Assembly (NCBI GenBank): GCA_022749935.1
Contig: JAKIWQ010000013.1
Location: 1 to 32,734 of the forward strand
Origin: Thermoplasmata archaeon
GTDB taxonomy: Archaea; Thermoplasmatota; Thermoplasmata; Lutacidiplasmatales; UBA184
Length of the DNA: 32,734 bases
Direction of reading: 5' to 3'
A program made the position numbers and the translations under genes. Positions 18,290-26,515 of the stretch are shown piece after piece. The notes beneath the pieces were generated by a model. It was not told where the DNA came from and did no database searches. It worked only from the letters and a program-made list of their open reading frames with translations. The first letter of the stretch is position 1. Each line of letters begins with the position of its first letter.

Positions 18290-18426
18290 ACCCCCGGCGC
18301 ATCGGGCTAGGGGAACCGGCGGGGCCCATGTCCGACGGTTCGACCGGAGGTGGAAATAATTCCCGGACTCCCGACCTCCCTCCACCACCCACGGGATTCA
18401 AATAGAAGCAAGACGATATGTCAATC

Positions 18427-18455
18427 GTCAGACAAAGATAGGGGTATTGTCTGAC
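18427..18455. promoter_or_regulatory. Putative RHH operator: perfect inverted repeat GTCAGACAA-N11-TTGTCTGAC
   Basis: 9-bp perfect arms, 20-bp centre spacing, ending 4 nt before the ATG at 18460 of an RHH gene. Confidence 0.75.
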
Positions 18456-18459
18456 AGAC

Positions 18460-18822
18460 ATGGTCGACACTTCCGAGCGGGTTACCGTGCGCATCCCGCA
18501 GGAACTCATCGAGAAGCTGAAGCAGATCCAGGACGTGCGAGGGTCTCCCACGATCTCCGACACGATCCGAGAGGGACTCGAGCAGTACATCGAGCTCCAT
18601 CTCCCACCGCAGAACGTCCGCAAGGTCGTGGTCGAACTCTCCCGCCAGGACAACAATCGCCTCGAGGCGTTCGTGCGGGAAGGGAACTCCGTGAGCGTCG
18701 ACGACGCGGTCCGCTCGGCCGTCCGAGAGTACATCCGCGGTCGTCTCGAGCAGGTCGGCGCCCTCCGCGCGCACCGACGAGAGGGGGAGGCGCTCGCCAC
18801 CGAGGGCTCCCCGCCGCCCTGA
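18460..18822 (+). CDS. Tandem ribbon-helix-helix transcriptional regulator (CdrS-like context)
   Basis: Two RHH-like repeats: ERVTVRIPQELIEKLKQIQD..SPTISDTIREGLEQYIE and RKVVVELSRQDNNRLEAFVREGNSVSVDDAVRSAVREYIRGRLE. Confidence 0.87.
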   Translation: MVDTSERVTVRIPQELIEKLKQIQDVRGSPTISDTIREGLEQYIELHLPPQNVRKVVVELSRQDNNRLEAFVREGNSVSVDDAVRSAVREYIRGRLEQVGALRAHRREGEALATEGSPPP

Positions 18823-18838
18823 GGGCGGAGGCGAGCCG

Positions 18839-19867
18839 ATGACGAACGCATCCGACGTTGCCTCGTGGGCGTCGCTCGCGAACAACCCCTCGATCGCGGT
18901 CGTAGGGCTCGGCGGCGCCGGATGCGAGTCGGTCTCGGACCTGCTCGCGCTCGGGATCCCAGGGGTTCGTGCCTTCGCCGTGAACACGGACGCGGCCCAC
19001 CTGCTTCGGATGGGCATCGAGGAACGGATCCTCCTCGGCCACCGGGAACTGAAGGGCCGAGGCAGTGGCGGAGACCGGGACGCGGTCCTTCGAGGCGCCG
19101 AGGAGGGGAAGGAGGAGCTCCTGCGACGCTTGCGACCGTTCGAGATCGTCTTCCTCCTCGCCGGGCTCGGAGGGGGGACCGGCAGCGCGCTCCTTCCCTT
19201 CCTCTCCCGGGAGCTCCGCGAGACCGAGACCCTCCCCATCCCGGTGGCGTTCCTTCCGTTCCAGATCGAGCTCGAGACCAACACCGGCCGGCGCGACAAC
19301 GTCGAGGCGACGGTCGCGGACCTGGAGGGGATGGGCGGGTTCCTCCTCGCGCTCGCGAACGAGAAGCTCCGCCGGTTCGAGTCCCTCCCGATCCATCGGG
19401 TGTTCCAAGTCCGGAACGCCTACGTCCATTCCCTGGTGACCAGCCTGGTCGACATGGTGGAGAACCCCTCCCAGATCTCGGTGGACTTCGCGAGCCTGAA
19501 GAACCATCTGAGGGCGTCCGACCTCTCCACCCTCGTGGTCGGGGAGTACCACATCTCCGAACCCGAACGTCTCGTGCACGAGGCGCTGAACGAGACCCTG
19601 CTGGACTACCGGATCTCGGAGAAACCCTCGGTCCTCGTCCATCTGGACGGGGGCTCGAACATGACCCTGGACACGCTCGACCGGGTCCTCCAGGCGCTTC
19701 GTCACCGCCTCGGCGACCCGGACCGCCTGGTCCTCGGGACCCGGGTCCGCTCGGAGCCGAGCGAGGTCGTGCGCCTCACGGCGGTCGTCGGGGGCCTCCG
19801 ACCCCGGACCGTCCGGGATGCTCTCACGCGGAAGTCGGCGGCGACCCACCCGATGCCGGCCCGATAG
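18839..19867 (+). CDS. Divergent FtsZ-like tubulin-superfamily GTPase
   Basis: SIAVVGLGGAGCESVSDLLALGIPGVRAFAVNTDAAHLL, GLGGGTGSALLPFLSREL, LANEKLRRF, T7-like SVDFASLKN. Confidence 0.92.
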   Translation: MTNASDVASWASLANNPSIAVVGLGGAGCESVSDLLALGIPGVRAFAVNTDAAHLLRMGIEERILLGHRELKGRGSGGDRDAVLRGAEEGKEELLRRLRPFEIVFLLAGLGGGTGSALLPFLSRELRETETLPIPVAFLPFQIELETNTGRRDNVEATVADLEGMGGFLLALANEKLRRFESLPIHRVFQVRNAYVHSLVTSLVDMVENPSQISVDFASLKNHLRASDLSTLVVGEYHISEPERLVHEALNETLLDYRISEKPSVLVHLDGGSNMTLDTLDRVLQALRHRLGDPDRLVLGTRVRSEPSEVVRLTAVVGGLRPRTVRDALTRKSAATHPMPAR

Positions 19868-24291: not shown

Positions 24292-24834
24292 ATGCCCGAA
24301 CGCGAACACGCCCCCACCGAGCGAACGGGACCGACCGACGACCCGTGGGCGGTGGCCGAACGTCGGAGCCGGGCCATCGAAGAGCCGCTGGACGTGCGCT
24401 GTCTCCGGAACGAGCCGTTCCCCCTCCTCGAAGTCCGCAACCCGCTCCACCGGACCTCCTATCGGGTGATGCTACCGACCTTCCCGGACCGGTCGGTCGC
24501 CCTCTGCACGTGCACCGACTTTGCCCGTCGCGGTCTCGGGACCTGCAAGCACATCGAGGCGGGAGGGCGCTGGCTCGAGCGGCACCCGCAGGTCCCTCCG
24601 TCCGCGCCCGCTCCCCCCTTCGACCCGGCCCCCGTCTGGGAGGAGATCGACCAGCGGCTCGAGCGCCCCGTCCCGCCGGGGGTGCCGGACAGCCTTCGGT
24701 GGAGGGAGGCTGGCGCCGTGCTCTATGAGCGGGCGGGCCCGGCGTATCTACCGGACCCAGAGAAGAAGGAAGAGGTTGGTCGCGGGGGCGGGAAGGGTCG
24801 ATCTAGATCGACGCCATCCCGGGCGCGCCCTTGA
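24292..24834 (+). CDS. SWIM zinc-finger domain protein
   Basis: CTCTDFARRGLGTCKHI matches CxC..CxH; start set by TATA spacing. Confidence 0.8.
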   Translation: MPEREHAPTERTGPTDDPWAVAERRSRAIEEPLDVRCLRNEPFPLLEVRNPLHRTSYRVMLPTFPDRSVALCTCTDFARRGLGTCKHIEAGGRWLERHPQVPPSAPAPPFDPAPVWEEIDQRLERPVPPGVPDSLRWREAGAVLYERAGPAYLPDPEKKEEVGRGGGKGRSRSTPSRARP

Positions 24835-26515
24835 GGGCCCGCACGCGGTAGTACTCGGGGTCCACGACGACTTCCCCGTTGATTCCCATCGTCTCGATGG
24901 TCTTCAACTGGGCGCCGCCCTGGGACTTGGCCCGCTGCCAGTCGGGGATCGGGATCGAGAACTTCTTCTCGACTTCCGTCCGGTAGATGGGGCCCGAGTT
25001 GTACGAGCAGAACGGGATGATCCGTCCGTCCGGGACCGCGTAGTGGATATCGCAGCGCATGAGGCGCTGGATGTCGTAGTCGTACGCGTCCTGGAAGTGC
25101 ATGTTGCCGATGTAGAGCGTCCTCCAAGTGAACTTCGCGACGGCTTCCTTGTTCCCCTCGGTGAAGATCGAGGCGATGACCTTCACGCAGTTCTTCTCGG
25201 ACAGCCCTTCCGGTGCCTTGGAGAAGTCGAAATACTTCGACACGTCGTGGAGCAGGCGGGCGCCCGCCACGGCCGTCCGTACCCGCGCGAAGCGCGAGTC
25301 GCGGTACTTCTCGATCATCGACTCGACGTTCTCAAAGAACCCGTCGACGTCCATGAACCGGGGGAGCGGCGTGATCTTCTGTCCGTCCTTCGAGATGAAG
25401 GCGAACGTCGCGCAGCCGCAGCCCGGGTGGGTCGTGAGCGTCATCTTTTCCTCGCCGTGGATGATGCTGACGAGCTCGGAGATCGGGGCGACCGACGGCA
25501 CGGGGAAGAAGTCCGACTTCTCGAACGGTCCCTCCGTGCAGAGGATGCGCACGAGGTCCGACTGGGTGAACCGCATCTGGAAGCGGTCCTTGTCCGGGAT
25601 ACGGGCCGTGAGGGCGACGGGCTGGAAGTTGACCCCGCGGACGACGTCGATGTTGTCGATCGCGAACTTGACGGTGGGCCAGATCTCCTTCTCGTTGAAC
25701 CCGCCGACCAGGGTCGGGACGAGGACGACGGAGAGGGGTTTGTCCGGCTTACCGGCCGCCAGGTCCGAAGCCGGGGAGTGGGTCTCCCGCGCGGCCTGGA
25801 TGGCCTTCTGCTTGACCTTCAGGAGCGGGACGCCCCGCACCTTCCGGTAGATCTCGTCATCGAGACCGTCGAACTGGAGGTAGAGCGTGTGCAGCCCGGA
25901 GTCCCGCGCAGCCTGGGCGAAGCCGGGCTCGTTGGCGACCCGGATGCCGTTGGTCGCGACCTGGATCTGCTTGAAGCCGAGGTCACGGGCCATTCCGACC
26001 GCGTCCAGGAACAGCGGGGAGAGCGTCGGCTCGCCCCCCGAGAACTGGACGGCGACCGTACCCACCGGCTTCTGCTCCCGGAGGGTCTTCAGCATGAAGT
26101 GGATCTGCTCGCGGGTGGGCTCGAAGACGTACCCCGCCGCGTTCGCGTTGGCAAAGCAGACCGGGCACTTCAGATTGCACCGGTTCGTAAGGTCGATCAG
26201 GGCGAGTCCCGTGTGGGACTTGTGGTGGCTGCACATGCCGCAGGTCGTAGGGCAGCCGCGGAACTTGTCGTAGTACGGGTTCTCGTATCCGACCCCGTCG
26301 TGGGCGTAGACTTCCATCCGGAGATAGAAATCGACGTCGTTCGAGATGATGTCCCAGAAGTACCCGTGGGTTCGGCAGGTCTTCTCCATGATGACCCGCC
26401 CATCTTTTTCCCGTACGACGGCGGGAATGACCTTGATACATTCGGGGCAGACCGAGGCGGTCTTACGGGGAAGGCCCCGCGGGGCCTGGAACTCCTTCAT
26501 CACGCGTGCCGGCAT
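24803..26515 (-). CDS. tes: Radical SAM protein, tetraether lipid synthase (Tes, MJ0619-like) family
   Basis: 570 aa; N-terminal SVCPECIKVIPAVVREKDGRVIMEKTCRTHGYFWDI; NRCNLKCPVCFANAN radical SAM motif; C-terminal MRCDIHYAVPDGRIIPFCSYNSGPIYRTEVEKKF. Confidence 0.83.
   Translation of the reverse strand: MPARVMKEFQAPRGLPRKTASVCPECIKVIPAVVREKDGRVIMEKTCRTHGYFWDIISNDVDFYLRMEVYAHDGVGYENPYYDKFRGCPTTCGMCSHHKSHTGLALIDLTNRCNLKCPVCFANANAAGYVFEPTREQIHFMLKTLREQKPVGTVAVQFSGGEPTLSPLFLDAVGMARDLGFKQIQVATNGIRVANEPGFAQAARDSGLHTLYLQFDGLDDEIYRKVRGVPLLKVKQKAIQAARETHSPASDLAAGKPDKPLSVVLVPTLVGGFNEKEIWPTVKFAIDNIDVVRGVNFQPVALTARIPDKDRFQMRFTQSDLVRILCTEGPFEKSDFFPVPSVAPISELVSIIHGEEKMTLTTHPGCGCATFAFISKDGQKITPLPRFMDVDGFFENVESMIEKYRDSRFARVRTAVAGARLLHDVSKYFDFSKAPEGLSEKNCVKVIASIFTEGNKEAVAKFTWRTLYIGNMHFQDAYDYDIQRLMRCDIHYAVPDGRIIPFCSYNSGPIYRTEVEKKFSIPIPDWQRAKSQGGAQLKTIETMGINGEVVVDPEYYRVRALKGAPGMASI

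Follow-up and report, generated by a model that had tools for sequence, protein, structure and literature searches.

A probable Thermoplasmata version of archaeal cdrS-ftsZ2 with a tandem-RHH regulator, a candidate operator and a divergent FtsZ2

An RHH gene followed closely by a gene for a divergent FtsZ-like protein raises the question of whether this locus, from an archaeal MAG (1.79 Mb) affiliated with the high-GC soil order Lutacidiplasmatales (PMC9287336), is a counterpart of the haloarchaeal division operon cdrS-ftsZ2, and in what respects it departs from it. The pairing of an RHH_1 gene with ftsZ2 is already published (PMC7439475, PMC9871819, PMC8178401), and CdrS, studied in haloarchaea, has been presented as one of the few known archaeal regulators dedicated to division. 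In the window (the whole stretch of 32,734 nt that was analyzed), both open reading frames were confirmed where a sequence-only reading had placed them, on the same strand and separated by a 16-nt gap:

18460..18822, + strand: tandem-RHH regulator, CdrS-type, 120 aa (Pfam, profile-profile comparison, AlphaFold model, relatives)
18839..19867, + strand: divergent FtsZ2, 342 aa, with a GTP-binding tubulin/FtsZ fold (Pfam, trees, structure model)

Conservation of the gene pair and identity of the FtsZ protein

An RHH gene lies immediately upstream of, and in the same direction as, 62 of the 64 FtsZ2-type matches in the genus, which argues against a chance adjacency; the distance between the two genes ranges from 18 to 98 nt across the 62 paired loci, and the remaining two matches are short and partial. 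The pair of a tandem-RHH gene and an FtsZ gene recurs in most other sampled families of the class Thermoplasmata and extends to a small number of other Thermoplasmatota classes. The neighborhood is thus kept in related genomes, and the earlier description of the module as a new form holds for its tandem RHH architecture but not as a peculiarity of this genome.

The FtsZ protein matches the Pfam families Tubulin (2.6e-20) and FtsZ_C (1.6e-10), and its structure model (pLDDT 89.8) has M. jannaschii FtsZ as its top PDB match. It shares only 24-30% identity with other archaeal FtsZ proteins and sits on a very long stem of 4-5 changes per site, in agreement with its initial description as a divergent tubulin-family protein. 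Phylogenetic analysis nested it within archaeal FtsZ2, together with the RHH-linked FtsZ2 proteins of haloarchaea and methanogens (bootstrap/SH-aLRT 100/98), and AU tests rejected trees that group it with FtsZ1 (p=0.0014) as well as trees that leave it outside FtsZ2 (p=0.006). The stem length leaves its exact position within FtsZ2 unsure, and for the same reason the tree is not meant to bear the FtsZ2 assignment alone; synteny and the operator described below concur with it. The low identity and long stem would also be expected if an unrelated RHH gene had captured as its neighbor an independent third paralog, of FtsZ or CetZ-like type. However, the AU tests and the occurrence of the same pair with a canonical FtsZ2 in other families make such a capture very unlikely, as does the fact that two other genera of the family encode a divergent FtsZ related to this one, in the same operon and behind the same operator. 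Since phylogeny and synteny agree, the locus is best assigned, as a predicted operon, to the Thermoplasmata form of archaeal cdrS-ftsZ2, homologous to the haloarchaeal one. This assignment, previously drawn from synteny and family membership, is now supported by the FtsZ2 placement, by the identity of the N-terminal ribbon of the regulator with that of CdrS, and by a shared operator word.

The source genome encodes three FtsZ proteins and one further tubulin-family protein, and SepF is also present. One FtsZ (contig C12) is a canonical FtsZ1 adjoining Spt5 and ribosomal protein L11, and another (contig C34) is a second FtsZ1-type gene (ftsZ1b) adjoining an apparent large subunit of DNA polymerase D, all neighbor names having been assigned by eye. 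The C34 protein, with its canonical T7 loop and tail, had been considered as a candidate FtsZ2, which was rejected when the tree placed it with the FtsZ1-type proteins. A 308-aa tubulin/FtsZ-like protein with a GTPase-domain match (Pfam, 1.2e-13) lies beside pilin-like genes in the same genome (L071 4127-5053, contig G000:C19). A search of viral contigs with an approximate haloarchaeal FtsZ1-like query sequence gave no match. Among the loci collected, one contig of a 'Chloroflexi' MAG (L138) carries an archaeal FtsZ2, for which mis-binning is probable.

The tandem-RHH regulator and its candidate operator

The sequence-only reading had proposed that the regulator is one chain with two RHH-like halves, and that such a chain could bind DNA as a pseudo-dimer. 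The two halves are delimited as follows:

18472..18600, + strand: N-terminal RHH unit, aa 5-47, with ribbon residues R7, T9 and R11 (invariant in 46/46 sequences)
18613..18759, + strand: C-terminal RHH-like unit, aa 52-100, with equivalent ribbon residues K55, V57 and E59 (model, profiles, relatives)

When the window protein is searched alone, its Pfam RHH_1 match (E=2.4e-9) is confined to residues 7-45 and the second unit falls under the Pfam thresholds, and a phmmer search of the protein against the PDB returned chance-level matches only. Nevertheless, profile-profile comparison aligns the two halves to each other over 46 of 46 columns (E=1.2e-10), several relatives' regulators show two RHH_1 stretches in Pfam, and the AlphaFold monomer model places helices at residues 14-27, 32-47, 62-73 and 80-113, in the order of one RHH followed by another. 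These results bear out the two-part chain, including by the structure prediction that had been proposed as its check. The ribbon of the N-terminal half reads R-T-R in 46/46 sequences, identical to that of haloarchaeal CdrS, and that of the C-terminal half reads K-(T/V)-E. The predicted architecture of the regulator is that of a CdrS-type RHH protein to which another RHH-like unit has been joined. Single-RHH proteins of approximately 55-75 aa are encoded upstream of FtsZ2 in haloarchaea, Methanomicrobiales, Bathyarchaeota, Borrarchaeota and one other member of Thermoplasmatota, those of haloarchaea and Methanomicrobiales having an R/K-T-R ribbon; the 120-aa regulator with two RHH units differs in size from single-RHH CdrS (55-61 aa). 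In another family (f19), a tandem-RHH gene lies directly upstream of pheT with no adjacent FtsZ detected (L109 4360-6282 and L110 2557-4448), which suggests that the RHH protein has roles beyond ftsZ2.

Directly upstream of the regulator gene lie a predicted promoter and a pair of palindromic boxes:

18397..18405, + strand: TATA-like box TTCAAATAG, predicted archaeal promoter of the operon (read from the sequence)
18427..18455, unstranded: candidate operator GTCAGAC-N15-GTCTGAC, a pair of palindromic boxes whose starts lie 22 bp, or two helical turns, apart
18427..18433, unstranded: operator box 1, GTCAGAC
18449..18455, unstranded: operator box 2, GTCTGAC

Other genus members carry TTCATATA or TATATA-like words at the TATA position. 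Because the TATA-like box lies about 26 nt upstream of the operator, the transcription start is predicted to fall on the first operator box. The operator ends 4 nt before the RHH start codon, a distance shared by 28 of the 40 genus matches listed. It occurs once in the window against 0.05 matches expected, and its first base, 18427, is the start coordinate of the earlier reading, in which the operator is not mentioned. The exact form GTCNGAC-N15-GTCNGAC was detected in 86 of 121 relatives and the reversed control in 2 of 121. At least one box is present in 47 of 61 RHH upstream regions (1.3 expected in shuffles), with paired boxes spaced by 22 (29 regions), 33 (3), 21 (2) or 44 bp (1); these spacings are multiples of approximately one helical turn. 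In the source genome, one exact double site has a clear gene context and a second (G000:C1:65569) lies without any. A scan of the ftsZ1a, cetZ-like and sepF loci of this genome for the N15 operator, allowing at most 2 mismatches, yielded weak matches only.

The boxes also bear on how the regulator would read DNA. A pseudo-dimer, in which one tandem chain forms a complete two-ribbon RHH unit and occupies one GTCNGAC box, is consistent with the homology of the halves and with the palindromic boxes, each of which could be read by one such unit, and F-plasmid TraY provides a precedent for an RHH dimer fold within one polypeptide (PMC12117103). However, TraY is a conjugation protein, whereas the Thermoplasmata halves are unlike at the DNA-contact positions, so that a symmetric box would face R-T-R on one side and K-T/V-E on the other. 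In addition, the ribbons are unpaired in the monomer model, although its low pTM (0.38) means that it does not fix the chain arrangement, and a single-RHH CdrS in one Methanomicrobiales genome (L163) uses the same box with the same 22-bp spacing. The proposed pseudo-dimer is therefore disfavored: we regard one chain per box as unlikely, and an equal pseudo-dimer is probably not formed.

The box at other division genes

Exact operators were identified 123-135 nt upstream of ftsZ1, before the TATA box, in three genera of family f9, and 93 nt upstream of smc in relatives. A second FtsZ2 gene in one genome (G087, L262 1501-2607), where an adjacent RHH gene is absent, has an operator 14 nt upstream. 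In the genus, the promoter element GTATGACGCTCGTCTGACAAA just downstream of the ftsZ1b TATA box is present in 63 of 78 genomes (none in the reversed control); it directly precedes ftsZ1b in 29 of 30 cases examined and varies chiefly at the box centers. Its first box is off consensus (GTATGAC) and overlaps another perfect palindrome, the leader palindrome GAGCGT-ATG-ACGCTC (G000:C34:32744-32764 and genus homologs), which could be the site of a second factor or an RNA hairpin.

All three haloarchaeal genomes scanned carry GTCNGAC-N4-GTCNGAC a short distance upstream of ftsZ1, and one of them also has it upstream of sepF; the element is likewise present at three of four further haloarchaeal ftsZ1 loci. 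The three scanned genomes contain 16 sites, most of them not near an identified division gene. In H. volcanii, CdrS binds upstream of ftsZ1 by ChIP-seq, SepF drops on CdrS depletion, and the table of CdrS sites omits CdrS's own operon (PMC8406309). Since haloarchaeal ftsZ1, a ChIP-seq target of CdrS, carries this element upstream, the GTCNGAC box is most likely the CdrS word. Taken as a predicted site, the box marks division genes besides cdrS-ftsZ2: in various relatives these are ftsZ1, sepF, smc or an additional ftsZ2, and in the genus of the window the gene concerned is ftsZ1b. These comparisons point to an autoregulated CdrS-type regulon as the best reading, which we consider probable. Two species of family f17 also have an exact operator in the promoter of a gene for a small proline-rich protein that is apparently exported (L241 4099-4127 and L242 3995-4023).

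The locus resembles cdrS-ftsZ2 of Halobacterium salinarum and Haloferax volcanii (PMC7439475, PMC8406309) in having an RHH_1 gene directly upstream of ftsZ2, an FtsZ2-clade protein, an R-T-R ribbon and the box word at division-gene promoters. However, haloarchaeal CdrS is a single RHH of 55-61 aa whereas the Thermoplasmata regulator has two RHH units, and in haloarchaea CdrL binds the operon, whose promoter has GTAAGAC and GTCTTAC boxes. These boxes are repeated at four haloarchaeal cdrS promoters (L133, L134, L149 and L179), partly as GTAAGAC-N4-GTCTTAC, and because CdrL is reported to bind only at the cdrS-ftsZ2 promoter (PMC7439475), they suggest a candidate CdrL operator. The available portions of two archaeal context surveys (PMC9871819, PMC8178401) likewise record that archaeal ftsZ2 genes widely have an RHH_1 (or 'parD') gene nearby, but describe no tandem form, operator, regulon or degenerate FtsZ2, and none of the papers searched reports the tandem architecture, the operator or a family lacking the T7 residue described below. 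The name parD, used for the ftsZ2 neighbor in one of these surveys (PMC8178401, in the portion available), would fit a ParD-like antitoxin and a toxin-antitoxin relic; given that no toxin gene was recognized next to the RHH gene, that the association with FtsZ2 is broadly conserved and that operators lie at division genes, we accord this almost no probability.

Divergence of FtsZ2 and a proposed mechanism

The FtsZ2 protein departs from its haloarchaeal counterparts, in which the T7 loop and tail are intact, at two of the following features:

19163..19186, + strand: T4 nucleotide-binding motif GLGGGTGS, conserved
19478..19495, + strand: T7 catalytic loop, S-V-D-F-A-S in place of N-x-D-x-x-D, with the second Asp replaced by Ser (aa 219)
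19790..19867, + strand: C-terminal tail without the IxxVR-type end that is present in relatives and in the FtsZ1 proteins of this genome

The GTP-binding motifs T1 (GGAG) and T4, the first T7 Asp (D216) and the overall fold are retained in the alignment and model. Every aligned genus member and two other genera of the family lack the second T7 Asp, its substitutes in the family sample being Ser, Thr, Asn or Leu, whereas most other families have N-x-D-x-x-D; T7 decay is also found in other lineages (families f3, f4 and f8). In E. coli FtsZ, substitution at the same T7 place (D212G) lowers GTPase activity approximately tenfold and gives static rings (PMC7320174). Owing to the loss of this catalytic residue, the FtsZ2 of the family probably still binds GTP but hydrolyzes it poorly. 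The IxxVR-type end is missing throughout FtsZ2 of the genus, while the FtsZ1 proteins of the source genome have it, and the genus FtsZ2 thereby lacks a tail that is likely needed for SepF tethering. Conversely, D216, the GTP-binding motifs and the intact fold would allow a normal GTPase in which another residue replaces the T7 Asp, with the module working as in haloarchaea; the replacement of this Asp across the family sample, together with the loss of the tail in the genus, makes this somewhat unlikely.

Taken as a whole, the favored explanation, a Thermoplasmata cdrS-ftsZ2 with a tandem RHH, a box-marked regulon and a degenerate FtsZ2, is likely. Because each box is symmetric and the ribbons of one chain are unequal, a box is unlikely to be read by a single chain; the DNA-reading dimer on each box would instead consist of two N-terminal RHH units from different chains, with the C-terminal RHH-like unit bridging dimers on boxes one or more turns apart. 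In NikR, a C-terminal domain joins RHH units that sit on the operator at a distance of two helical turns. NikR is among the nearest fold matches of one regulator half, but the regulator lacks the nickel domain, and its joining domain would be RHH-like itself. At its own promoter, where the predicted start of transcription coincides with the boxes, binding would repress the operon, and such self-repression may hold FtsZ2 and the regulator at a set level. At ftsZ1 of family f9, where the boxes lie upstream of the TATA box, binding would activate; CdrS reportedly activates ftsZ1 in Haloferax volcanii. In filaments driven by the two FtsZ1-type proteins, FtsZ2 may then act as a partner with slow turnover, and the RHH protein, by setting how much FtsZ2 is present, would tune the dynamics of the ring.

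More tentatively, and with slightly less than even confidence, FtsZ2 of this family may be a hydrolysis-defective filament modulator (in the genus also without the tether tail), dosed by a tandem-RHH CdrS that reads GTCNGAC at 11-bp multiples, a grammar common to division-gene promoters from haloarchaea to Thermoplasmata. If so, the box grammar would represent an ancient, conserved division regulon. With a box word common to the promoters of cdrS-ftsZ2, ftsZ1, sepF and smc across two phyla, an ancestral division regulon becomes directly testable, and a family-wide FtsZ2 without the second catalytic Asp offers a natural case for asking whether division requires GTP hydrolysis by both FtsZ proteins of archaea.

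Elsewhere in the window, a convergent gene of the Methyltrn_RNA_2 family (PF04013; 19824-20486) shares approximately 44 bp with the 3' end of the FtsZ2 gene, and a radical SAM protein with an HMPTM N-terminal zinc ribbon (Pfam PF23545) is encoded at 24803-26515.
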